33,295 nucleotides of DNA from Spirochaetales bacterium. GTDB lineage: Bacteria; Spirochaetota; Spirochaetia; SZUA-6; JAFGRV01. The position numbers and the translations under genes are program-made. Every line of letters starts with the position of its first letter. Within the stretch, counting starts at the first letter, position 1. The stretch covers positions 1 through 33,295 of the forward strand of contig JAFGHO010000110.1 of the NCBI GenBank assembly GCA_016930085.1, in the 5' to 3' direction. Below the pieces are notes generated by a model. That model saw only the letters and a list, made by a program, of their open reading frames with translations, made no database searches and was not told the DNA's origin. Shown piece after piece: positions 3,375 to 25,311 of the stretch.

Positions 3375-4586
3375 TCAGAAGAAATCGGCTTCTTCGAAGA
3401 AATCGGCTTCTTCGAAGAAATCGGCTTCTTCAATGACAAACTCGTTATCGCTTCCGGTGAGGAAGCGGTTCAGGAAGGGGGAATAGGTGCGGACGGTGAC
3501 GTTTTTCCCGGCGGGATCAAAGGAAAGAATACGCAGATACCCGTTTCCGCCCCGTTCCAGAATCTGGTAGTTTGCAAGCATCTGATACACCTTGTTGCCG
3601 CCCGGCGACCGGTCGATCCGGAATCCCGTGCCGCCTTTGATTATATGGCCGCAAAAGACAAAGGCGATATTGTCGTGATTCCCGATGCATTTATCCCAGA
3701 TTTCCTGCCCGTTATTGACACTGTCCGGTCCCTTGTTGATGCCATATGAGGCGGGGGTCCACTTGTGGTGCCGCTTTGATCCGTGCAATGTATTGTCATA
3801 GTAAAGATATGAGTGGGTGAGGATGATCACCTTACGGTTGTAGTAGTATGATATGGTCCTGTTTGCCCACCGGAGTACCTCATCGCGCGGTCCGAACTCG
3901 ATAGCGACAACGAGCCAGTCGATTCCTCCGGCGTGAAAGAGGTAACAACTGTTTTCGAGTTTGTCCGGTTCGTAGACACTCCCGAATGAGGGAAGACTCA
4001 CGAAGTCCCGTACGGGGAAGTACCGGTTAAAGCGTGTCGAATCGCGTATGTTGCAAAGCAGTCCTTGAGATCCGATATCGTGATTGCCGATTGTCAGGGC
4101 ATAGGGAACAATACCGTCCAGTATCGCCATGCACGACCGGGCCGCTTCCCATTCACTCTCTCTGTTGTGCTGAACAATATCGCCTTCATGAAGAACAAAG
4201 GCGATATTAAGGGCGTCTTTGTTCTGTGCTATCCAGGCGGTTTGCGCCCTGAATATATGAGGATAATAGGCCGAGTAATATTGAGTGTCCGGAAGGATAA
4301 TGAGGGAGAATGGCCCGTTTCCGGTCGAATGGCCCGACTGATTTCCGTGTTCAGACGATTCTATTTCCGGGTCCCAGGGAGAATGGGAATCGGCATTTCC
4401 CGGCGGGAGAACGTTTGTCTGCATCGCTGTTAGGGATGAGTTTCCGCGGGCCTGTTCGGATTGCAAGGAGTATGAAACCGGATGTGAATCACGCTCCAAA
4501 TACGGGTAATAGACGATAAAATCACATCCCGTCACAAAACCGATACACAAGACCAGTATCCGGAGAATAACGGCTTTTCGAAGCAT
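3375..4586 (-). CDS. Lipoprotein metallophosphoesterase (calcineurin-like)
   Basis: A 403-residue calcineurin-fold phosphohydrolase predicted to be a surface or periplasmic lipoprotein. The N-terminus has a basic start, a hydrophobic stretch and a lipobox ending FVTGC (C21). Residues about 25-90 are a low-complexity linker. The metal-site motifs follow in order: LPDTQ (D100), HEGDIV (D136), GNHDIG (157-162), a later HSYLYY histidine, and CGHIIKGG. The substrate is unknown. The start is firm: GGGAGGG sits about 6 nt before the ATG. The last 18 residues are three exact copies of EEADFF, encoded by three identical 18-bp units running into the stop. The tail looks like recent repeat expansion rather than part of the fold. 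Confidence 0.85.
   Translation of the reverse strand: MLRKAVILRILVLCIGFVTGCDFIVYYPYLERDSHPVSYSLQSEQARGNSSLTAMQTNVLPPGNADSHSPWDPEIESSEHGNQSGHSTGNGPFSLIILPDTQYYSAYYPHIFRAQTAWIAQNKDALNIAFVLHEGDIVQHNRESEWEAARSCMAILDGIVPYALTIGNHDIGSQGLLCNIRDSTRFNRYFPVRDFVSLPSFGSVYEPDKLENSCYLFHAGGIDWLVVAIEFGPRDEVLRWANRTISYYYNRKVIILTHSYLYYDNTLHGSKRHHKWTPASYGINKGPDSVNNGQEIWDKCIGNHDNIAFVFCGHIIKGGTGFRIDRSPGGNKVYQMLANYQILERGGNGYLRILSFDPAGKNVTVRTYSPFLNRFLTGSDNEFVIEEADFFEEADFFEEADFF
3378..3431. repeat. Three exact 18-bp tandem repeats at the gene 3' end
   Basis: Three identical copies of GAAGAAATCGGCTTCTTC lie at 3378-3395, 3396-3413 and 3414-3431, ending 3 bp from the stop of the phosphoesterase gene. On the coding (minus) strand each unit encodes EEADFF. 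The ends of each unit (GAAGAA and TTCTTC) are reverse complements, so each unit can fold into a small hairpin and each junction is the palindrome TTCTTCGAAGAA. The absence of any mismatch implies recent amplification or active homogenisation. Confidence 0.95.
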
Positions 4587-7298: not shown

Positions 7299-8894
7299 AT
7301 GAAAAAGGAATGGCTGTTTCAAGGCATTATACCGCAGGTTATATCTTTTGTATTCGTTCTCCTCTTTTTAATCGGGATTATTTTTGCCCCGGCCGATGAA
7401 ACCCGTACCCTGTGGAAGGGTTATTATACCCTTGTTCTCGATACACCGGGTGAGATCGCACCCGTCTGCGAACGACTCGCGCGGGTACCGGGGATTACCG
7501 GGGTTGTATCAAAGGACACTTCACGGGTGACGTTCAATAACCTGGAAACCCTTGAGGAAATCACCGTTTCGGAACTCGAAAGCCGCCTCGATCCCCTTGA
7601 TCCGCGTAATGATGCATATATGAAATCACTGCACCGTTATTTCCTAAACAGTGACGGCTGCGGGGTGATCTATGTTAAAACGCGTCTCAACAGGGTGTTG
7701 TTTTCCCTCACGGCGGGCGGAATCGTCAACACACGCTCGATAACGATGTCGAGTCCGGATGTGCGCCTTCATGAACAATTTCTGTATTTCTTTTTCGCCC
7801 TGATTTTTGCCGTGTGTTTTATTTTTTTCAGGGAAAGAAAGTCTCCGCATAAAGCACCCGCGATTTTGGGATTGTTCCCGTGGCTGATGTTCACTTTGTC
7901 CGGGGATATGGTTTCTTTAGTCTGTTTTTTTATTATCTACCCCGCCTGGTTTCGTTTTTACCGGGAGTCCTCTCTCGCCATTGACAACCGTATCCTTTAT
8001 CAATGGGATATGGGGACCAACGGCAGGTTCATAAAAAGCGGACTGATAGCGGGGGGCGCCCTTTTCTCCGCTTTCGTTATCAGGCTTCTGCAAGGGGGCG
8101 GGGCGGGGCTTTTCTCTCTGTTATTCGTTGCTTTCGCGTCGGCTTCCCTTTCGGTTTTTACCCTTCTTTTTCGGTTGCGGAAGGAAACGCAGCGGGAACA
8201 CAGATTATTTACCCCTGTTCGTCTGTTTCCTCTGTCCCGTAAAAGTTTCAATAAAGGCATTACTAACGGCTTCCATTTTCATGGTGAGACGATGGCCGCC
8301 GATGCGGCGCTTCTCGCGATTGTCGCATGCTGTTTTATTCTCATGTATGTCGTGATGGGCGGTTCTTCCGATACCGGCCTGCCGCTTCCCCTCCGGCAAG
8401 ACGGGTCCGATGCCATTTCATATCAGGGGCTTATCGAACTCGAAAAAACGAAGCGGCGTGAGTACCTTCCTGATCTTTCGGATTATGTGTCGCATCGTTT
8501 TTATCAGGAAGGGATAAGCGACGGGGCGGTGTACGGATTTCCGGCGTTGCATGAGGAAATCCTCACCGGTGAATACCGGGAAGAAAGCGGGGACGGGAGT
8601 ATCGTGCAAACCTTGAAAACCAGGCACACGTGCGATGAAGCCTGGCTCGACGCTGTCATTGGTTCGATAAAAGAAAACAGTATCGAGGAACTCCTTTTCC
8701 TTCAACAACGGCCCCTCCATGTCTCGGCCGGATCGGCCGGTGATTATTACCTTGTCGGGTATCCTGTATTTAGTAGTATATTGATATTCAGCATAGTCTA
8801 TTTATTTATATTTTTTGGCGATTTCCATTTGACAGCATCCCGATTGTATGGTACTACAAGTTTTACGGGGAGGAGGACTCAGAAGGCCGCATGA
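7299..8894 (+). CDS. Unrecognised multi-pass membrane protein at the head of the rnf genes
   Basis: I do not recognise this 531-residue protein. A membrane helix at 12-30 is followed by an extracytoplasmic domain of about 130 residues (31-160). Helices follow near 161-177, 188-218 (perhaps two), 247-264, 269-291 and 331-355. A second extracytoplasmic domain (about 356-487, charged, ending near SAGSAGDYYLVGYP) precedes a last helix at 489-507. The two-domain pattern faintly recalls FtsX/MacB-type permeases, but I see no diagnostic motif. The start is supported by GAGG 9 nt before the ATG. Its stop overlaps the rnfC start (ATGA), which ties it to the Rnf complex in expression and perhaps in function, for example as an accessory or assembly factor. 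Confidence 0.75.
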   Translation: MKKEWLFQGIIPQVISFVFVLLFLIGIIFAPADETRTLWKGYYTLVLDTPGEIAPVCERLARVPGITGVVSKDTSRVTFNNLETLEEITVSELESRLDPLDPRNDAYMKSLHRYFLNSDGCGVIYVKTRLNRVLFSLTAGGIVNTRSITMSSPDVRLHEQFLYFFFALIFAVCFIFFRERKSPHKAPAILGLFPWLMFTLSGDMVSLVCFFIIYPAWFRFYRESSLAIDNRILYQWDMGTNGRFIKSGLIAGGALFSAFVIRLLQGGGAGLFSLLFVAFASASLSVFTLLFRLRKETQREHRLFTPVRLFPLSRKSFNKGITNGFHFHGETMAADAALLAIVACCFILMYVVMGGSSDTGLPLPLRQDGSDAISYQGLIELEKTKRREYLPDLSDYVSHRFYQEGISDGAVYGFPALHEEILTGEYREESGDGSIVQTLKTRHTCDEAWLDAVIGSIKENSIEELLFLQQRPLHVSAGSAGDYYLVGYPVFSSILIFSIVYLFIFFGDFHLTASRLYGTTSFTGRRTQKAA

Positions 8895-10216
8895 GTGAGC
8901 TAAAAACCTTTCAGGCGGGAGGGATACATCCTTCAGAATACAAACAGTATACGCAGAAAATACCGATCAAGAATGCCCACGTTCCGTCGACCGCGATTAT
9001 TCCCATGTTGCAGCATATGGGGAAAACGGCCGAATGTCTGGTACGGCCTGGTGATATTCTCAGGGAAGGGATGCCGATCGGCAAGGCGACCGGATATTTT
9101 TCCGCACCCGTTCATTCTTCCATTCCCGGTACCGTAAGGGATATAACCGAGGTCTATCTTCCGACCGGTGTCAGAAGCAAGGCGGTGGTTGCGGATCTTT
9201 CAGGGGAATTCGACCGTTCGGGCAAGGATGTGGCCAAAAGATCGTGGGAGACCCTTTCAGGTGAAGAGCTAATCAATATAATAGCGGAGAATGGGATTGT
9301 CGGACTCGGCGGCGCCACATTTCCCGCCCATATCAAATACACCGTCAAGCGGAACGTGAAACTCGATTACTTTGTGGTCAATGGCGTGGAATGCGAGCCG
9401 TTCCTTACCGCAGATCATAGGCTCATGCTCGAGAAAACGGAAGAAATCATCGAAGGAATCCGCATTATTGAAAAAATTCTTTCTCCCGGCAAGGTCGTTA
9501 TCGGTATAGAAGAAAACAAACCGGATGCGGTCGAGACGGTCGGCCGGGCAGTCGCGGAGTCGCGGCTCGAATACGAGGTCGTGACGCTCAGGACACGGTA
9601 TCCGCAGGGTGATGAAAAACAACTGCTTCAGGCGATAACGGGAAAAGAGGTCCCTTCAGGCGGCCTGCCGCTTGATATCGGGGCGGTCGTATCGAATGTA
9701 GGCACTGTTTTCGCCGTATACGAAGCCGTCGTCTATCGAAAACCGCTTATCGAGAGAATTGTCACGGTAACCGGATCGGTGATTAAAAACCCGGCGAATT
9801 TCAAGGTGAGAATCGGAACAAAAATCGGCGAGCTTATCGAGGAATGCGGCGGTTTTACCGGCAATCCGGCCAAAATCATTGCCGGCGGACCGATGATGGG
9901 TTTTGCGCTCTACGACCTGGATACGCCGGTGACCAAAGGCGTTTCAGGCATTGTCGCGCTTTCAAAAAAGGAGTTGAAAAACCGCAGTGAAACTTCCTGT
10001 ATCCAGTGCGGACGATGTATCCGCGCCTGCCCTCTCTCCCTCAACCCGACATACCTTTTCAAACTCATCGAACACGGTATGTACAAAGACGCACAGGCGG
10101 AAGGACTTATGGATTGCAAGGAATGCGGCTGTTGCGGGTACACCTGTCCCGCCCATCTTCCTCTTGTGCAGGGGATGAAACTGGGGAAACTCATGCTGAG
10201 GAAAAAGGCACAGTAA
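8891..10216 (+). CDS. rnfC: Rnf complex subunit RnfC (NADH-binding, Fe-S)
   Basis: RnfC is the peripheral subunit of the Rnf ferredoxin:NAD+ oxidoreductase that exchanges electrons with NAD(H). Its 441 residues fit the short form of the family. The N-terminal region has the biotinyl/lipoyl-like turn PVHSSIPGTV (about 74-83), the nucleotide/FMN-binding GLGGATFPAH near 138-147, and a later ESC-type region. Two four-cysteine clusters lie at the C-terminus: C370-C373-C376-C380 and C409-C412-C415-C419. The start overlaps the preceding gene (ATGA), and the stop shares one base with the rnfD start (TAATG). Like RnfC of clostridia, it lacks the long alanine-rich tail of proteobacterial RnfC. Confidence 0.95.
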   Translation: MSELKTFQAGGIHPSEYKQYTQKIPIKNAHVPSTAIIPMLQHMGKTAECLVRPGDILREGMPIGKATGYFSAPVHSSIPGTVRDITEVYLPTGVRSKAVVADLSGEFDRSGKDVAKRSWETLSGEELINIIAENGIVGLGGATFPAHIKYTVKRNVKLDYFVVNGVECEPFLTADHRLMLEKTEEIIEGIRIIEKILSPGKVVIGIEENKPDAVETVGRAVAESRLEYEVVTLRTRYPQGDEKQLLQAITGKEVPSGGLPLDIGAVVSNVGTVFAVYEAVVYRKPLIERIVTVTGSVIKNPANFKVRIGTKIGELIEECGGFTGNPAKIIAGGPMMGFALYDLDTPVTKGVSGIVALSKKELKNRSETSCIQCGRCIRACPLSLNPTYLFKLIEHGMYKDAQAEGLMDCKECGCCGYTCPAHLPLVQGMKLGKLMLRKKAQ

Positions 10217-11223
10217 TGGACCATCCGAATCAATTGCGCATAACGTCTTCCCCCCATATTCATGAGGGCGATTCGACGGCACGAATCATGTGGAGTGTCG
10301 TCTTGTGTCTCGTCCCCGCCGGAGCATGGGGCGTTTATAATTTCGGTCCGGGGGCCCTGGCGGTTATCCTGGTGTCGATCGCAGCGGCGGTGCTTACCGA
10401 ACTCGTCGTCGGGGCGGTGAGAAAAAACATTACGGTGTTCGACGGCAGCGCATTTCTCACCGGGCTGCTGGTCGGGTATAACATGCCGCCGTCGGTGCCG
10501 GGATTCATTCCCGTCGCCGCTTCCGTCTTCGCCATTGCTGTCGTCAAACACACCTTTGGCGGTTTGGGCAGGAATTGGATGAACCCGGCGCTCGCCGGCC
10601 GCGTCTTCGCCATGTTCTGCTGGACGGAGGAAATGACCGGGTGGTCGGCCCCCCTGTCGGCGATGGATGCGGCGACGGGTGTCACCCCCGTCGCCGCTTC
10701 CGACGCGGTGACAAGCGCGACCCCCCTCGCCCGGGGTGCCGCTGATTTTCTTCAACACGGCAGCTACCTCGATCTCTTTCTGGGAAGAATATCAGGGTGT
10801 ATCGGGGAGGTGTCGGCCCTGCTTCTCCTCGCGGGGACGATATATCTGTTTATACGAAAAATCATCACGTGGGAGATTCCCGCCGCTTATATCGGGACGT
10901 TTACCCTCCTTGTATGGATCTTCGGGGGTATACCGGCGGGCAGCCGACTTTTTCAGGGAGATGTCCTTTTTCATTTTTTAAGCGGCGGACTCATTCTCGG
11001 CGCGTTCTACATGGCAACTGATATGGTGACGAGTCCGGTAACCCGGAAGGGGATGCTTGTGTTCGGGGCGGGATGCGGTTTTTTCACATTTGTCATCAGG
11101 ATCTTCGGGGGATTCCCCGAAGGGGTATCGCTTGCCATTATCATCATGAATATTTTCGTTCCGTTGATCAACCGGCTGACAAAACCGGTCAAATTCGGTT
11201 ATGTGAAGGAAGAAACGAAATGA
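10216..11223 (+). CDS. rnfD: Rnf complex subunit RnfD (membrane flavoprotein)
   Basis: RnfD is an integral membrane subunit carrying a covalently bound FMN, homologous to NqrB. The 335-residue protein is mostly hydrophobic, with about nine to ten helices. The flavinylation motif DAVTSATPLA places the FMN on T169, with the D at -6 and S/T-x-A-T pattern recognised by ApbE-type transferases. The family motif ATDMVTSPVT and the ending IMNIFVPLINRLTKP are present. I start it at the ATG overlapping the rnfC stop; the same frame stays open further upstream inside rnfC, but those codons do not resemble RnfD. It overlaps rnfG (ATGA). No ApbE gene is in the window, so the flavin transferase must be elsewhere. 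Confidence 0.94.
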   Translation: MDHPNQLRITSSPHIHEGDSTARIMWSVVLCLVPAGAWGVYNFGPGALAVILVSIAAAVLTELVVGAVRKNITVFDGSAFLTGLLVGYNMPPSVPGFIPVAASVFAIAVVKHTFGGLGRNWMNPALAGRVFAMFCWTEEMTGWSAPLSAMDAATGVTPVAASDAVTSATPLARGAADFLQHGSYLDLFLGRISGCIGEVSALLLLAGTIYLFIRKIITWEIPAAYIGTFTLLVWIFGGIPAGSRLFQGDVLFHFLSGGLILGAFYMATDMVTSPVTRKGMLVFGAGCGFFTFVIRIFGGFPEGVSLAIIIMNIFVPLINRLTKPVKFGYVKEETK

Positions 11224-11900
11224 AGGTTTCCGTGTCCGAGATTGCCGTTATCGGCCTCAAGCTTTTCATCATCTGTGCCGCCTCGGCGGTTATTTTAAGC
11301 CTGCTCAATACCCTCACCGCACCCCGCATCGAGAAAAACAGGATAGAGCAGCAAAAAGAAGCGCTGGAGTACCTCGTGACAACAGGGGGCATCGGGGAAA
11401 AACATACGGTCGACGATGAGACGGTGACTTCGGTGTATACGATTACGCAAGGATCGGATGTGACCGGGTATGTTCTCGAACTCCGCGGATACGGTTACGG
11501 TGATCCCATGACGCTGCTCGCGCTGTATGCGACGGACGGGGAATTGAAGGGCGCCAAACTCATGGAGAATACGGAAACGCCCGGTCTGGGGAAAAAGGCC
11601 GAATCGGATGAATACATGAAAAAGTTCATCGGCAAGGGCGGTACCGTGGGGCCGCCGATTCCCACCACCATCGAGCTTCTTAAAGCACAGACGGGGGCGT
11701 CCGGGGCAACGGCGTATTCGGAGGTCGCAGTAACGTCGGTCAACGATGTATTACTGAAAGTTTTCGAATGGTTTTTCGGAAAACCAAAAACGGGCGCTTC
11801 CGATTCGGTAACCGGCGCAACGATCACCTTTCAGGGTGTTTCACGGGCACTCGCCGGGGGATCGGATTACGTAAAGGAAAAGCTGGGAGGAGGGAAATGA
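11220..11900 (+). CDS. rnfG: Rnf complex subunit RnfG (covalent FMN, periplasmic)
   Basis: RnfG is anchored by one N-terminal helix (about 7-30) with its FMN domain outside the membrane, and is homologous to NqrC. The 226-residue protein has ETPGLGKKA at 119-127 and the flavinylation motif DSVTGATIT at 195-203, placing FMN on T201. A second SGAT sequence occurs earlier at 161-164, but it lacks the aspartate six residues before the threonine. The ATG overlaps the rnfD stop (ATGA), and its own stop overlaps the rnfE start the same way. The segment between ETPGLG and the FMN motif, about 70 residues, seems longer than in familiar RnfG proteins. Confidence 0.94.
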   Translation: MKVSVSEIAVIGLKLFIICAASAVILSLLNTLTAPRIEKNRIEQQKEALEYLVTTGGIGEKHTVDDETVTSVYTITQGSDVTGYVLELRGYGYGDPMTLLALYATDGELKGAKLMENTETPGLGKKAESDEYMKKFIGKGGTVGPPIPTTIELLKAQTGASGATAYSEVAVTSVNDVLLKVFEWFFGKPKTGASDSVTGATITFQGVSRALAGGSDYVKEKLGGGK

Positions 11901-12580
11901 TCAAGGAGTTTACCAAGGGTATTATCAGGGAAAATCCGCTTTTTATCATTGTTCTGGGACTTTGTCCGGCCCTGGCCGTCTCGACCCAGGTGGTGAATGC
12001 CCTCGGTATGGGGGCAGGGGTTATCTTTGTGCTTCTGGGATCGAATATCTGTGTTTCGCTTTTAAAGGATTTTATCCCGGAAAAGGTGCGCATCCCGTCT
12101 TATATCGTGATTATCGCGTCATTTGTTACCATTGTCGAGCTGGTCATGAAAGCCTTCACTCCCGGTCTCTACAAGAATCTGGGAATATTCGTTTCCCTTA
12201 TCGTCGTCAACTGTATCATTCTGGGCCGCGCCGAGGCCTTCGCGAGTAAAAACCCGCTGCTGCACTCGGTCCTGGACGCCCTGGGTATGGGAATCGGTTT
12301 TACCCTCGGCCTTCTTCTCATCGCGGTTATCCGCGAGATTTTCGGTTCGGGGACGATTACCCTCTTCCCCATACAGGCGATCGGGTTCGACGGTACCGTG
12401 AAGCTGGGGTGGCTGAATGAGTATCCTGGAAAGGTATGGTCTTATGCCGCGGGTGCCCTGCTCGTGATGGGGTACCTCAAGGCTTTTTTCAACTGGCTTC
12501 AGACCAGGCGACGGATACCCCGTGAATCCAAGGGTGAAGTCGCGCACGCCCCTGAAAGCGAGGTGAAGCAGGTATCATGA
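11897..12580 (+). CDS. rnfE: Rnf complex subunit RnfE
   Basis: RnfE is an integral membrane subunit homologous to NqrD, which with RnfA forms the pseudo-symmetric core holding a membrane [2Fe-2S] cluster. The 227 residues contain six hydrophobic helices. The family signature ENPLFIIVLGLCPALAVST (residues 12-30) includes the conserved cysteine C23, and LIVVNCIILGRAEAFAS carries the second cysteine (near residue 105). The Shine-Dalgarno GGAGG lies 6 nt before the ATG within the rnfG end. The last 25 residues are charged and non-conserved. It overlaps rnfA by ATGA. Confidence 0.94.
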   Translation: MIKEFTKGIIRENPLFIIVLGLCPALAVSTQVVNALGMGAGVIFVLLGSNICVSLLKDFIPEKVRIPSYIVIIASFVTIVELVMKAFTPGLYKNLGIFVSLIVVNCIILGRAEAFASKNPLLHSVLDALGMGIGFTLGLLLIAVIREIFGSGTITLFPIQAIGFDGTVKLGWLNEYPGKVWSYAAGALLVMGYLKAFFNWLQTRRRIPRESKGEVAHAPESEVKQVS

Positions 12581-13176
12581 CATACATCGGAATTCTCATT
12601 ACCTTTGTCCTTATTGAAAACTTCATTCTCACCAAATTTCTGGGGCTCTGTCCCTTTATCGGGGTATCGAAAAAGATGGATTCGGCCATCGGTATGGGAT
12701 TCGCCGTCATTTTCGTCATGTCGATCGCTTCGCTCGTGACCTGGCTGGTATGGAATCTTCTCCTCGTAAAACTGGAACTCAATTTTTTGAAAACAGTCAC
12801 CTTTATCCTCGTGATCGCGGCACTCGTGCAGTTTGTCGAGATGGTGATACAGAAAATTTCACCGCCGCTTTACAAGGCACTCGGTATCTACCTACCCCTT
12901 ATCACGACTAACTGCGCGGTACTGGGTGTCGCGCTGATAGCGGTGGTCGATAAAAAAATGAATGCGATTGAAAGTTTTTTTGCCGGATTTTCCGCCGGGG
13001 CCGGTTTCCTGCTTGCTATCCTGCTTATGTCCTCGTTACGGGAAAAATACGAAACGGAATGGATCCCCAAACCGTTCAGGGGTATCCCGATCGCCTTTGT
13101 CACCGCTGGACTTATGGCATTGGCCTTTATGGCCTTCGACAAGGCGCTGCTGAAAAATCTGTTGGGCGGGGGATGA
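12577..13176 (+). CDS. rnfA: Rnf complex subunit RnfA
   Basis: RnfA is the partner of RnfE, homologous to NqrE. The 199 residues have six membrane helices and the mirror-image signature ENFILTKFLGLCPFIGVS (C25 region), with a second conserved cysteine in PLITTNCAVLGVALI near residue 109. These cysteines are those predicted to hold the intramembrane [2Fe-2S] cluster shared with RnfE. Length and motifs are typical. The start overlaps the rnfE stop. The gap to rnfB is 7 bp, with its Shine-Dalgarno near the rnfA stop. Confidence 0.95.
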   Translation: MTYIGILITFVLIENFILTKFLGLCPFIGVSKKMDSAIGMGFAVIFVMSIASLVTWLVWNLLLVKLELNFLKTVTFILVIAALVQFVEMVIQKISPPLYKALGIYLPLITTNCAVLGVALIAVVDKKMNAIESFFAGFSAGAGFLLAILLMSSLREKYETEWIPKPFRGIPIAFVTAGLMALAFMAFDKALLKNLLGGG

Positions 13177-13183
13177 GAGAAAT

Positions 13184-14011
13184 ATGGTCGAGGTCTTGAT
13201 ACATATAGTGTGGGCATTTCTCGTTGTCGGGGGACTCGGTGTCACCTTCGGTTTGCTGCTGTCGCTGGCTTCGCGGTTGTTCGCCGTCAAAAAGGATATG
13301 AGGACCGCCAGACTCGAAGAGGCGCTTCCCGGACTCAACTGCGGCGCCTGCGGATTCGCGGGTTGTGTTTCGTACGCGGAGGCGATTGTGGGCGGAGAGG
13401 CGGCCCTGACATTGTGCACGGCGGGCGGGAGTCAGACGGCGGAAAAACTCGCCGGAATCATGGGCGTCGATCTGGAGGTTTCATTCGTTAAAAAAGTCGC
13501 GCAGGTGCTTTGCAGGGGAGGAGAAAAAACGGTGAAGTACCGGTTCGAGTACAATGGGATAAAGGACTGTAACGCTCTCTTTGCGTTCTACGACGGAAAC
13601 AAGGTATGTACGTTCGGCTGTCTGGGGCTGGGAAGCTGTATCCGCGTGTGCCCTGTCGCCGCTATCGATTATGATGATGAAAATCTCGTGTGGGTGGACG
13701 GGGAAACATGTATCGGCTGCGGCAAATGCATCGAAGTGTGTCCGACCGGCGTCATGCAGTTTCTCCCTCACGATACGGATTTTTTCGTGGCCTGCCGATC
13801 GACGGATAAAGGCGCCGCGGTGAGAAAATATTGTTCGGTGGGCTGTATCGGCTGCAAAGTGTGTGAAAAACAATCCCCGGAGGGGGGTTTTATTGTCGAA
13901 AACAATCTCGCGCGGATAGATTACCGGATGCGGGGCGACCGGAGTGCCGCCGCCCAAAAATGTCCTCCGAAGTGTATTATAAGGAATACGATTCAGGTTA
14001 CTGAAACATGA
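13184..14011 (+). CDS. rnfB: Rnf complex subunit RnfB (multi Fe-S), degenerate C-terminal ferredoxin part
   Basis: RnfB accepts electrons from ferredoxin. Its 275 residues begin with one membrane helix (about 4-26), then the Fe-S domain motif C53-x2-C56-x4-C61-x16-C78. A ferredoxin pair follows: C142/C146/C152/C156 (FGCLGLGSCIRVCP) and C176-C179-C182-C186. A further clostridial-type segment begins at C217 with C221-C224-C227, but the expected fourth cysteine before proline is S231. The last motif keeps only C260 and C264 (KCPPKC), its three leading cysteines having been replaced by RMRGDRSAAAQ. One or both of the last two clusters are therefore probably absent. The gene ends by overlapping the GH57 gene start. 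Confidence 0.94.
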   Translation: MVEVLIHIVWAFLVVGGLGVTFGLLLSLASRLFAVKKDMRTARLEEALPGLNCGACGFAGCVSYAEAIVGGEAALTLCTAGGSQTAEKLAGIMGVDLEVSFVKKVAQVLCRGGEKTVKYRFEYNGIKDCNALFAFYDGNKVCTFGCLGLGSCIRVCPVAAIDYDDENLVWVDGETCIGCGKCIEVCPTGVMQFLPHDTDFFVACRSTDKGAAVRKYCSVGCIGCKVCEKQSPEGGFIVENNLARIDYRMRGDRSAAAQKCPPKCIIRNTIQVTET

Positions 14012-20681: not shown

Positions 20682-21317
20682 ATGAACAAAAAAAATCTTT
20701 TATTGCTTTACGCGAGATCGAATCTCAATATAGTTCTGTCATTGAGCACTGTTGTTCTCATCGTCGTCTCTATTTCCGTATTTACCGGTTTGTTGAGGAT
20801 TTTCATGCCTTTGATTATTTTCTTTTTTTATATTTTTATCAGTTTTTTTATCCTGCTCGGAAGGCGGGGTGCACAGGAAATTCTTTCCGAAGCGGATGAA
20901 GACAGACGAAGGCATGTCGGGAAGGTAATCACCCGTTACCGGGAAATGCGGGACAGGATTTCCTTTTTGAGAATCGGGAATGAAGAAATCGGCAAGACGC
21001 TCGAGTATTTCCTCCTTGTCTCCGGCAACTACCTGAACAAATGCAGGGAACTCTCGACATATTCGCCGCAAGCCAACGCGAAAATAGAAGAGGTACTCGG
21101 TGTCTGCCAGAATTACCTTGAAGAATATGACCAGCAGTTGACGGGAAAACGGTATGGAATAGAGGATAACGATAATCTTGACGAATACACGGCGAAAACG
21201 GTCGATATCATCAGGAAGGCGGGCGAATGTATCGAGGAAAATATCGAAGAGGAACTCGTCGGACTTACCAGGAAAGAAAAAATGGAAATAATCGAGGAAA
21301 TGAATGACGAGGAGTGA
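20682..21317 (+). CDS. XpaC-like membrane protein (two helices plus helical domain)
   Basis: A 211-residue protein with two adjacent membrane helices (about 17-37 and 40-59), then a charged, all-helical cytoplasmic domain. The domain's order (VGKVITRYREMRDRI, LEYFLLVSGNYLNKCREL, KIEEVLGVCQNYLEEYDQQL, DIIRKAGECIEENIEEE) resembles XpaC, the 5-bromo-4-chloroindolyl phosphate hydrolysis family. The real biochemical function of that family is unclear and members are often near TelA. I see no catalytic motif, and similarity by eye is moderate. The ATG at 20682 is preferred to TTG 20670. It has its own strong promoter and is first in line before the CXXX-tail gene (117-bp gap), so it may belong to the same unit. 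Confidence 0.55.
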   Translation: MNKKNLLLLYARSNLNIVLSLSTVVLIVVSISVFTGLLRIFMPLIIFFFYIFISFFILLGRRGAQEILSEADEDRRRHVGKVITRYREMRDRISFLRIGNEEIGKTLEYFLLVSGNYLNKCRELSTYSPQANAKIEEVLGVCQNYLEEYDQQLTGKRYGIEDNDNLDEYTAKTVDIIRKAGECIEENIEEELVGLTRKEKMEIIEEMNDEE

Positions 21318-21434: not shown

Positions 21435-23072
21435 ATGAAAAGAACGGTTGTGATCCTGCTTGCGGCTTTCTGCGTTTGCAATCTCTATTGCCTTCAGGCG
21501 GATCTTGAATCGGTAGAGATAGATTGCGTTATCCGGCCGGACGGCAACGCGGACGTTTTTTACCGCCTGCAGTGGCATGCGAGCGGGGGTGAAATGCACG
21601 GGTTCTATTTTGAGGGCATGGCGGCGGACCCCTATTTTAATATGGATCGCTGTTTCGCGGACCTCGATACCGGCGAACGGGTTCCCCTCGAGATAGACGA
21701 GTTGAGGTCGAGGTATTACGATGTGATCCTGGGAGACGGCAAGGGATTCAGCGGCCGCGCCTATTATTTTATCAATTACGGAGCGGATTTTGCCGGATAT
21801 GGATGTATCGGTTATACCGATTCGGAAGAGTTCGGCAGGCTTTTCTACTTCGACTGGGCGCCGGTCCAGTGGGATGAATCCCTCCTTCACAGAACAGTAA
21901 GAATCGTCCTTCCCGTCATTGTCTCAACCGATGAGGTCGATGACGAGACGATCGGATCGATCAACTTCCGTACCGAACCATTTGTCAACAAACAGAATAA
22001 AATCGATTACTTCGGCGTTCCCGGCGATGACGGAAGACATTATCTTACCGTCCGGTTTCATCAGGACGATGTGCCGGGGATGGCGGCACAGCGGATCCAA
22101 TTCTATATCGATGCCGCGGCCGTCCCGATGGAAGAAGGGGTTCTTTCCGTTCATTCCCCGGAAACAAGCGGCCGGAACGAGGAAGTGGTGACGGAAGATA
22201 TCGAAAGGCAATCCACGGAGTACATCGAGCCCGCCGATGATACGCGTATCATGTTTATCGTGGTGATAGGAGTATCGGTGGCGTTCGCGGTTCTGATCGC
22301 GATCAGAAAATCGGTCGGATTCGAGGGCGTCACAGAAAGGGTCGAAAATATACGGTGGGCGGGGGAAAACTGGATACCGCCGAAACTTATCGTCGGGTCA
22401 TATCAGGTGAAGGGGAAAATCGTCAAGGACCTTCATCCCATCGAGGTCGCCCTGCTGCTGGAGATGCCCCTGCCCAAGATAGTGGCGATTATGCTGGACG
22501 GATTGAAGCGGCAGGGTATCATCGAAATAGACTCCGAAGATCCGCTTCGAATACGTATCGTCTCCGCCCGGAAGGCGGAGCATGAATATGAGGAACTCTT
22601 TCTGCGGGCTTTCGATACGAAAGGGAATGTGCTTTCCGGTGTGCTTTCCGATTTTTTCGAAAAACTCCTCGTAGCGCTTCAGGAAAAAATTTGGGATTGC
22701 GACCTTGAGGCAATGAAAGAATACTACACAAAGAAACTGGAATCGGAATCCGAAACGGAAAAAGGCCTGACCGGCCCCTATTACCATTACTGGTATTCAT
22801 ACTATCACATTTACCACCATACCGATGCCTACAGCCGGCTTCATCTGCCCGCCGGTCTCGATTCGGATTACAGGACGTTTATGGCATCATCTGCGTGCTT
22901 TACCGGGTGTTTTACCCCGCCCGCCGTCGCCGCAGGCGGCGGTGTCGACGCATGCTACTCAGCCTGTCATAATGCCTGTCATTCCGCCTGCCACTCGGCA
23001 TGCCATTCCGCCTGCCACTCCGCCTGCCATTCCGCCTGCCATTCGGCGTGTGTTTCCGGGGGCGCACATTGA
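21435..23072 (+). CDS. DUF2207-like membrane protein with C-terminal CXXX (Cys-His-Ser-Ala) repeat tail
   Basis: A 545-residue protein. Signal peptide (about 1-22), an extracytoplasmic beta-rich domain (23-268), one membrane helix (271-291), then a cytoplasmic part with a winged-helix-like segment (LHPIEVALLLEMPLPKIVAIM, 333-353). This order matches DUF2207 proteins. The tail is unusual: a Tyr/His-rich stretch (449-466), C488 and C492, then eight four-residue units from C507 (CYSA, CHNA, six CHSA) and a last C539. Typical DUF2207 proteins end in a Gly-rich tail instead. Single-pass topology puts the tail in the cytoplasm, where the adjacent radical SAM enzyme could act on it. The ATG has AGGGGG about 9 nt upstream and gives a clean signal peptide. 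Its stop overlaps the radical SAM start. Confidence 0.82.
   Translation: MKRTVVILLAAFCVCNLYCLQADLESVEIDCVIRPDGNADVFYRLQWHASGGEMHGFYFEGMAADPYFNMDRCFADLDTGERVPLEIDELRSRYYDVILGDGKGFSGRAYYFINYGADFAGYGCIGYTDSEEFGRLFYFDWAPVQWDESLLHRTVRIVLPVIVSTDEVDDETIGSINFRTEPFVNKQNKIDYFGVPGDDGRHYLTVRFHQDDVPGMAAQRIQFYIDAAAVPMEEGVLSVHSPETSGRNEEVVTEDIERQSTEYIEPADDTRIMFIVVIGVSVAFAVLIAIRKSVGFEGVTERVENIRWAGENWIPPKLIVGSYQVKGKIVKDLHPIEVALLLEMPLPKIVAIMLDGLKRQGIIEIDSEDPLRIRIVSARKAEHEYEELFLRAFDTKGNVLSGVLSDFFEKLLVALQEKIWDCDLEAMKEYYTKKLESESETEKGLTGPYYHYWYSYYHIYHHTDAYSRLHLPAGLDSDYRTFMASSACFTGCFTPPAVAAGGGVDACYSACHNACHSACHSACHSACHSACHSACHSACVSGGAH
22953..23048 (+). repeat. Eight 12-bp coding repeats (C-x-x-x units)
   Basis: Eight consecutive 12-bp units encode CYSA, CHNA and six CHSA, followed by one more Cys codon at 23049-23051. 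Third positions differ between units (CAT/CAC, TCC/TCG, GCC/GCA/GCG, TGT/TGC), while the Cys, Ser/Asn and Ala identities are kept. Confidence 0.93.
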
Positions 23073-24403
23073 AAAAGGAGAGGCTTTTATGGATAGATTC
23101 GTTTATCGATAATGTCAGGGAGCATCTTTTGCTCAGGGAAGAAGACGATGTTCTCATCATACCGCCGAACAGGGTTTATAAAGTCAACGAATCCGGCAGG
23201 AAATTGCTTCGGTTTCTTCTGGACGGCGGGCGTATCGGGGATGTTACCGATATCACCGACGGCGAGCGGACGGAGCAGGTTCATTGGTTTTTCTGCGATC
23301 TCAGGGCTTTTTTTTCCGGCTGTCCGGAGGCCCCCGAAGCGAGGAGGGCGGTCGAACGAATCAATTTTTCCTTTGATTTCACCCGGCTTCCCGTTCTTGG
23401 AGAAATCGCCGTAACGTACCGGTGCAACAACCGCTGCCTTTTCTGTTATGCGGGGTGCGGCGGCCGGAAAAAAGGAAAAGAACTCGGGACACGCCGGATT
23501 GAACGGATCATCGGAATATTCAAGGAAAAGGCAAAAATACCCTTTTTTTCATTTACCGGCGGCGAACCCCTGCTTCGGGACGATCTCGAACATCTGGTTC
23601 GTTACGCGGTCGCGCGTGGACTCCGCGTAAACCTTATCACAAACGCCACCCTTTTTACCACGCGGCGGGCGCGAGCCCTGTTTCGGGCGGGATTAAGGAC
23701 AGCGCAGGTAAGCGTCGAAAGCCATGACGAAGAGGTTCATGACCGGCTGACCGGTAATCCCGGTTCTTACAGGAAAACACTCGCCGGCATCGAGATGCTT
23801 CAGGAGGCGGGGATATCGGTACAGACGAATACGACACTCAATGGTATCAATGCTTTCGGTATCGAACACCTTCCGGCTTTTCTGTCGGCCCTCTGTATCA
23901 AGCGCTTTTCTCTGAACCTCTTCATCCCCTCGGGCCGGGGTCTCGAGTATAATCAGCTTTTTTTCCCGTATTCGGCTGCCGGCCCGGTTATCGAGACAAT
24001 GCAAAAAGAGGCGCGGAAGCACGGCCTCGTCTTTTACTGGTATTCCCCGGTTCCGCACTGTTTGTTCAATCCGATCGCGCACGGATTGGGAAACAAGTCA
24101 TGCGCCGCGATGGACGGGTTGATATCGGTCTCACCGGAGGGTGACGTTCTTCCCTGTTCCTCCTATCCCGAACCGATGGGAAACCTGTTACTGGAGGAGT
24201 TCGAGGCCGTATGGTTTTCAAAGCGGGCCGCCTTTTTTAAGAACAAATTGTTCGCGCTTCGGGAATGCGAGGGGTGCTCCATGTTTACTGCGTGCCAGTC
24301 CGCCTGTCCCCTCTATTTTCAGTACGCGGGCGCGGATGAAATAAAGGCCGGACGGGCGTCCCTCGAGAAAAGAAAACGAGTATTGGTGGAGGAAAGATCA
24401 TGA
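23069..24403 (+). CDS. Radical SAM/SPASM protein with N-terminal PqqD-like domain (putative peptide maturase)
   Basis: A 444-residue radical SAM enzyme. The N-terminal part (about 26-95), with DDVLIIPPNRVYKVNESG, looks like a PqqD/RRE peptide-binding domain. The [4Fe-4S]-SAM motif C119-x3-C123-x2-C126 (YRCNNRCLFCYAG) and the GGEP motif (164-167) follow. A SPASM-type region near the C-terminus has cysteines in SCAAMDG, LPCSSY and CEGCSMFTACQSACP. PqqD-rSAM-SPASM proteins usually modify ribosomal peptides by thioether or carbon cross-links, and the likely substrate here is the CXXX tail encoded directly upstream. The start is uncertain: TTG 23069 forms TTGA with the upstream stop, but the best Shine-Dalgarno (AAGGAGAGG) precedes ATG 23089 in another frame, which stops after seven codons. 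Confidence 0.88.
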   Translation: MKKERLLWIDSFIDNVREHLLLREEDDVLIIPPNRVYKVNESGRKLLRFLLDGGRIGDVTDITDGERTEQVHWFFCDLRAFFSGCPEAPEARRAVERINFSFDFTRLPVLGEIAVTYRCNNRCLFCYAGCGGRKKGKELGTRRIERIIGIFKEKAKIPFFSFTGGEPLLRDDLEHLVRYAVARGLRVNLITNATLFTTRRARALFRAGLRTAQVSVESHDEEVHDRLTGNPGSYRKTLAGIEMLQEAGISVQTNTTLNGINAFGIEHLPAFLSALCIKRFSLNLFIPSGRGLEYNQLFFPYSAAGPVIETMQKEARKHGLVFYWYSPVPHCLFNPIAHGLGNKSCAAMDGLISVSPEGDVLPCSSYPEPMGNLLLEEFEAVWFSKRAAFFKNKLFALRECEGCSMFTACQSACPLYFQYAGADEIKAGRASLEKRKRVLVEERS

Positions 24404-25311
24404 AAATCAGGTTTCTCGTTATCCCGGCAATGCCATTGATCGTGCGAATTCTACTTTTTGCCGTGTTTGCCGGTACCGGATTGTTCTTTCAACTCCGGCT
24501 GCCCGATGCCGTGCTCCCGGGATTTTTAGTAATGGCGGCGGGGAGCCTTTTATTGTTGGCCCGCCACTACAGGAATAAACCGGTCGATCTGGGTTTCGAG
24601 GACTGGAGACCGGCCTCGAAACGTGAGTTCGAGAGAATAAAGAATAATCTGGCCATGACGAAATCGATCAAATACCCTTTTGTCTTCAAACCGGCCCTGG
24701 GGGTGCTTTTTATCGTCCTTATCGGGATAGCAGGATTTTTCGCCCTGATCGAAGAAGAAGAGGAACTCCTCATCCTGCTTGCGGACGCGGCGATCCTGCT
24801 GCTGCCGGTGAGTTTCAGCGGGCAGGTCAAACTCTGGACACCGCGGGAACTTGATCTCAAAATGGGCCGGCTCGCTGCGGTCATGGACAAAGGGGAATCT
24901 TCACCGCACGGCTTTATCATTACCCCGTATATCAGACTCGACAAAGACAAGGAGGGAAAACAGATTCCCGAAGATATCAGGCTGATGATCGAACCGCGGA
25001 GAAAGCCGGAGGATTTTATCGGCGTACAGGTCCAGGTGGCGATCAACAATGGACCCAATGGCGCGGTGCCGTATATGTATGTGGTATTTCTCTGCCAGGG
25101 GAAAGGGAATACCTTCCGGTATTTGAAGGAAGAAAAATACGGGAGTATGATCAAAGAGCCGGGAGGAGACGAGAAGTACGGGTATATCGTCGTCCGGCAG
25201 CGAACGGGCGGCGGCGGATACCATACGACCGATCGCGACTGTCTCAGACTCTACCGGATCGCCGAAGAAAAGCTCGACACCTTGCAGTCGAAGGCGGCGA
25301 GGGGGGGATAG
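24400..25311 (+). CDS. Four-helix membrane protein of unknown function, radical SAM cassette
   Basis: I do not recognise this 303-residue protein. Hydrophobic helices lie near 10-31, 37-54, 98-116 and 122-139. A soluble, probably cytoplasmic C-terminal domain of about 160 residues (145-303) follows, containing GFIITPYIRLDKDKEGKQ, VQVQVAINNGPNGAVPYMYV and a basic, glycine-rich RQRTGGGGYHTTDRD. No peptidase or transporter motif is visible. Its ATG overlaps the radical SAM stop (ATGA), so it is co-translated and likely works with that system, perhaps as a membrane partner of the CXXX-tail protein. It is the last gene before the tRNA pair on the other strand. Confidence 0.72.
   Translation: MKIRFLVIPAMPLIVRILLFAVFAGTGLFFQLRLPDAVLPGFLVMAAGSLLLLARHYRNKPVDLGFEDWRPASKREFERIKNNLAMTKSIKYPFVFKPALGVLFIVLIGIAGFFALIEEEEELLILLADAAILLLPVSFSGQVKLWTPRELDLKMGRLAAVMDKGESSPHGFIITPYIRLDKDKEGKQIPEDIRLMIEPRRKPEDFIGVQVQVAINNGPNGAVPYMYVVFLCQGKGNTFRYLKEEKYGSMIKEPGGDEKYGYIVVRQRTGGGGYHTTDRDCLRLYRIAEEKLDTLQSKAARGG

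Follow-up and report, generated by a model that had tools for sequence, protein, structure and literature searches.

A radical SAM/SPASM enzyme paired with a cysteine-tailed, DUF2207-type membrane protein in Spirochaetota: a candidate modification system with a membrane-anchored substrate

The window analysed here, a stretch of 33,295 nucleotides, is one contig of the 5.36-Mb genome of a Spirochaetales bacterium. On its forward strand lie four neighbouring genes, which we call g0, g1, the enzyme gene and g3. Their features are as follows, with coordinates given as positions in the window.

20682..21317, + strand: g0, putative accessory membrane protein with two N-terminal hydrophobic segments, helical thereafter
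21435..23072, + strand: g1, ATG start, 545 aa; DUF2207-type membrane protein with a Cys tail, the proposed substrate
21444..21500, + strand: predicted N-terminal signal segment of g1, aa 4-22 (hydropathy)
22248..22304, + strand: predicted membrane-spanning segment of g1, aa 272-290, with basic residues after it (hydropathy; orientation predicted)
22893..22913, + strand: conserved ACFxGCF-type motif of g1 ahead of the tail, aa 487-493 (alignments)
22953..23069, + strand: CXXX tail of g1, aa 507-545, Ala-Cys-His-x units ending in ACVSGGAH; proposed modification site
23069..24403, + strand: PqqD-like/radical SAM/SPASM enzyme gene, TTG start (profile matches, homologue alignment)
23123..23308, + strand: PqqD-like N-terminal domain of the enzyme, approximately aa 19-80; proposed substrate docking site (Pfam PqqD in homologues)
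23423..23446, + strand: radical SAM CxxxCxxC motif of the enzyme, C119, C123 and C126
24101..24307, + strand: SPASM domain of the enzyme, C345, C363, C400, C403, C409 and C413 (profile and alignment)
24400..25311, + strand: g3, putative accessory membrane protein with four hydrophobic segments and a conserved C-terminal domain; absent from the distant family f57

The stop codon of g1 (TGA, 23070-23072) overlaps the TTG start of the enzyme gene (23069) in the 4-bp junction TTGA, and the enzyme stop codon (24401-24403) overlaps the ATG of g3 (24400) in the 4-bp junction ATGA. A first-pass annotation of this DNA had described three genes joined by such overlaps; both junctions and the order g1-enzyme-g3 stand, but the cassette is larger than it supposed, since it missed g0, a gene of the same orientation that precedes g1 by 117 bp. 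In all same-class cassettes examined except that of genome G059, g0 directly precedes g1, and in several genomes the two overlap by 4 bp. No Pfam family was matched by g0. When public contigs were scanned with the enzyme, one relative was found, Spirochaetales bacterium isolate Zod_Metabat.353; the search patterns were not conserved.

What kind of enzyme is encoded? The window protein matches Radical_SAM (E 1.9e-29; 103.4 bits vs a cut-off of 29.5) and SPASM (E 5.2e-7; 30.3 bits vs a cut-off of 21.5), and the CxxxCxxC cysteines and all six of the SPASM domain are retained without exception across 27 homologues. The PqqD-like and SPASM parts previously read from the translation find support: SPASM lies over its cut-off, while PqqD is a weak match in the window enzyme (E=0.08; 13.7 bits vs a cut-off of 23.4) and is clear in some homologues, with matches in 9 of the 27 (best 1.3e-6) and a score of 27.3 bits, above the cut-off, at locus L076. 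Profile matches in the PDB include SkfB (6efn), PqqE (6c8v) and the radical SAM proteins 5v1q and 5wgg; they span the radical SAM and SPASM regions, and the match to 5wgg begins at N-terminal position 36. None of the curated NCBIfam radical SAM families takes in the window enzyme or any of four diverse homologues. The sole PADLOC match, a viperin-type match to the radical SAM core, was judged to be superfamily noise. Two loci carry damaged enzyme genes. At L139 (G415:C3:7550-8014), a second, partial copy with an in-frame TAG lies apart from the intact cassette of that genome and looks decayed; at L072 in f57 (G236:C66:50000-58448), the enzyme is split into two reading frames and the tail is intact, owing either to an assembly error or to recent decay.

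By hydropathy, g1 begins with a signal segment, continues as an ectodomain and then crosses the membrane once, with basic residues after the crossing. To our knowledge, DUF2207 is a family without a known function. The description of g1 as DUF2207-like holds for its relatives and not for the window protein itself, in which the profile (PF09972/PF20990) was undetected: the N-terminal domain is matched below cut-off in 4 of 19 g1 relatives (best E 0.0025), and distant members, which share the same domain layout, match DUF2207 at 6.5e-4 and DUF2207_C at 1.8e-5, again below cut-off. A further hydrophobic stretch (aa 336-354) sits in a winged-helix-like region equivalent to DUF2207_C of f57 and is unlikely to be a membrane span. 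Because this stretch is not counted and the single transmembrane segment is followed by basic residues, the tail is predicted to be cytoplasmic, the side on which radical SAM enzymes operate. An AlphaFold2 model of g1 from a two-row alignment had a pLDDT of 35 and was discarded.

Residues 507-545 of g1 read CYSACHNACHSACHSACHSACHSACHSACHSACVSGGAH, an (ACHS)n-type tail with Cys at each fourth residue, as the earlier reading had it. Within the tail DNA lies a 12-bp tandem array (22974-23044). Is the tail then a young DNA repeat? In six relatives with 53-63% overall identity to g1, the 39 tail residues are almost identical and the repeat number is constant, and a near-fixed length is retained across other genera and families in which synonymous sites are saturated. 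In 18 comparisons against the window protein, the tail has a pN of 0.048 and a pS of 0.79, compared with 0.37 and 0.78 for the g1 body; tail Ser codons are of both the TCN and AGY types. Since synonymous sites in the tail are as saturated as those in the body and pN is low, a recent repeat expansion is excluded. Judged from these sequence comparisons, it is selection on the protein that maintains the tail. Ala, Cys and His of the unit are kept and the fourth position varies. The Cys spacing is also constant in the upstream motif and in the first and last units, where Phe, Tyr or Val stands in place of His.

Does the tail occur together with the enzyme? Among 393 Spirochaetota genomes, a degenerate tail pattern was found in 22 and the enzyme (E<=1e-60) in an identical list of 22; the g1 body was found in the same genomes and in G276, where the contig stops within the gene. 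Eight more relatives have g1 with an adjacent enzyme, including G010, in which a shortened repeat and fused frames look like an assembly error. The paired set covers nine families, of which f47, f57 and f60 are distant; because the 30 genomes are related, they do not amount to 30 independent events. Protein distances of g1 and the enzyme are correlated (r=0.91). This co-occurrence, established within Spirochaetota, is silent on which part of g1 is modified.

DUF2207 proteins of the usual kind provide a comparison. A family search found members in 30 of 218 genomes, and Gly-rich, Cys-free tails are present at 16 of the 25 readable loci; no enzyme of this kind was found beside any of the 25, within approximately 1.5 kb on each side. 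The two kinds coexist in genome G197, where the Gly-tailed DUF2207 protein (L150) lacks the enzyme and the Cys-tailed protein (L076) is accompanied by it. Thus the enzyme-substrate pairing put forward in the first-pass annotation survives the co-occurrence test proposed there, and tail type tracks the radical SAM gene without exception in the genomes searched. Four long DUF2207-type proteins in f57 and f78 (L161, L163, L164 and L170) have a zinc-ribbon (CPNCG...CGSCGG) near the end of the visible stretch; neither a Cys repeat nor a radical SAM gene was seen with them, and they perhaps represent a third tail type. Tail-pattern matches on viral contigs were rejected, the eight readable ones being short simple-repeat frames with no cassette gene; viral radical SAM matches are distant (E 4e-8 or weaker), and the plasmids searched gave no match.

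The most distant family, f57, indicates which genes form the core. Its g1 is approximately 920 aa long and weakly alignable, with DUF2207 N- and C-terminal matches, and its tail consists of three blocks based on ACHSACHSACHSACV with the end SSF or SNF. Neither g0 nor g3 was detected in f57; instead, at three aligned loci, the enzyme is followed by a 421-aa coiled-coil zinc-ribbon protein and a zinc-ribbon protein with two transmembrane segments. These were rejected as diverged forms of g0 and g3, as no profile match was obtained. Since f57 keeps the tail and the enzyme while the partners are replaced, the tail and the enzyme constitute the universal core. The four-helix membrane partner originally counted in the cassette is real, with four hydrophobic segments by hydropathy, but g3, missing from f57 together with g0, lies outside that core. 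The predicted cytoplasmic domain of g3 was modelled by AlphaFold2 with a pLDDT of approximately 80, and a fold search of the g3 model against the PDB gave nothing at E<=0.001 (best 2plg, 0.03). Below significance, this domain resembles small chaperone-like proteins (2plg, 4h5b and SycT).

How does this arrangement relate to known systems? In the Syntroph_Cxxx family (TIGR04117), a Cys-x-x-x repeat likewise has a radical SAM/SPASM gene nearby. However, window g1 does not match that profile and 7 of 19 relatives match it weakly (best E 0.088), all short of the curated cut-off of 50 bits; moreover, the repeat here forms the end of a DUF2207-type membrane protein of 545-920 aa. Annotations also include a comparable pair, the ACGX system (TIGR04340), but the window enzyme scores 78.7 against rSAM_ACGX, far under the cut-off of 400. 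Known PqqD-like radical SAM/SPASM maturases act mainly on small peptides. PqqE with PqqD, and SkfB (6c8v, 6efn, 5wgg), share with the enzyme the radical SAM and SPASM profile match and the PqqD-like domain, a weak match in the window protein; they differ in their small-peptide substrates, and here no curated NCBIfam maturase family applies.

Two families of membrane proteins also resemble g1. Gly-tailed DUF2207 proteins (PF09972/PF20990) have a signal, an ectodomain, a transmembrane segment, a cytoplasmic winged-helix-like region and a low-complexity end, as g1 does. By contrast, their end is Cys-free, they have no radical SAM neighbour, and window g1 is without their later transmembrane hairpin. 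The TIGR04222 membrane proteins, which have a C-terminal Cys-rich, low-complexity end, are proposed MNIO substrates (PMC12452194). In both cases a Cys-rich membrane-protein end adjoins a modifying enzyme, and Cys-free members occur without the enzyme (PMC12452194). The present system differs in using a radical SAM/SPASM enzyme and not MNIO, in its exact, fixed-length repeat, in a tail predicted to be cytoplasmic and not periplasmic, and in a pairing that is strict here and loose there; the TIGR04222 profile had no match at E<=1 among 19 g1 members. In the open-access literature searched, no description of this system was found, and none joining CXXX, ACGX or DUF2207 with radical SAM.

From the observed gene order, domains, tail constancy and strict co-occurrence, we infer a substrate, a chemistry, a topology and a role. 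The best explanation, which we consider probable, is that the Cys tail of g1, a protein permanently anchored in the membrane, is modified by the enzyme, most likely through Cys thioether cross-links, with g0 and g3 as accessory proteins. The g1 protein would sit in the inner membrane, its C-terminal half extending into the cytoplasm, where Ala-Cys-His units with Cys at every fourth residue would replace the usual Gly-rich end. Translational coupling would bring the enzyme and g1 together; the enzyme may dock on g1 via its PqqD-like domain, and radical chemistry would then alter the tail unit by unit, Cys thioethers being the likeliest product. No protease or transporter, as needed for RiPP leader removal and export, is conserved with the cassette when flanks are compared across genomes; the absence of export and protease genes in the window had been noticed before, and the flanks vary between genomes. 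Because such conservation is absent, the modified tail would remain part of g1 on the inner side of the membrane, and its ordered Cys and His residues could coordinate metal or take part in redox reactions. Both the Cys/His composition and the zinc-ribbon partners seen in f57 make such a metal or redox role plausible. Put in full, radical SAM chemistry would equip the cytoplasmic end of a membrane protein with a Cys/His ladder that is permanent, cross-linked and nearly constant in length and that acts in place on metal or electrons, with no peptide released; we advance this complete picture tentatively, as a possibility.

Could the tail instead be an unmodified, metal-binding Cys/His arm, serving the enzyme at most for docking while another part of g1 or a partner protein is modified? 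Its composition fits metal, the f57 partners are zinc-ribbon proteins, and the ACFxGCF motif is conserved outside the tail. However, the tail is the only g1 feature that is near letter-identical in f57, f47 and f60, and it was never found without the enzyme; as to partners, g0 and g3 are absent from f57 and are therefore not a general substrate. We regard this alternative as unlikely. Still less credible, indeed very improbable, is that the enzyme acts on tetrapyrroles or other small molecules and is a mere neighbour of g1. The top NCBIfam scores of the enzymes do belong to NirJ2 and AhbD, which are heme-synthesis enzymes, but these scores are 114-151 bits vs cut-offs of 500, a PqqD-like domain is present, clearly so in some homologues, and the pairing of g1 with the enzyme persists though all other neighbours change.

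A different question is whether the enzyme acts on the tail and makes a product other than a thioether, such as formylglycine derived from Cys, a carbon-carbon bond to His or an epimerised residue. Radical SAM/SPASM enzymes elsewhere make each of these, and His and Ala in the tail are invariant to the same degree as Cys. A further such chemistry is the cyclopropylglycine that TvgB forms on a repeat peptide (PMC9062424). Against a non-thioether product stands the Cys spacing, which holds in the upstream motif and the terminal units where His gives way. This possibility overlaps with modification of the anchored tail as proposed above, and most of its probability falls inside that proposal; taken by itself, it appears somewhat unlikely.

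If the pairing is true, the substrates of radical SAM maturases widen to membrane-bound proteins, in parallel to the proposed MNIO-TIGR04222 systems and with another enzyme class. The system comes with a natural control, as the same type of protein without the enzyme has a Gly tail. The candidate substrate sequence is named and can be tested, and one branch of DUF2207 would gain a possible role.

Elsewhere in the window, a few kilobases upstream of the cassette (8891-14011, + strand), genes resembling an Rnf-type electron-transport operon (RnfC, D, G, E, A, B) were recognised by eye in the translated sequences. The gene at 3375-4586 (- strand) encodes a phosphoesterase-like protein predicted to be secreted; three exact 18-bp units at 3378-3431 give it a C-terminal EEADFF repeated three times.
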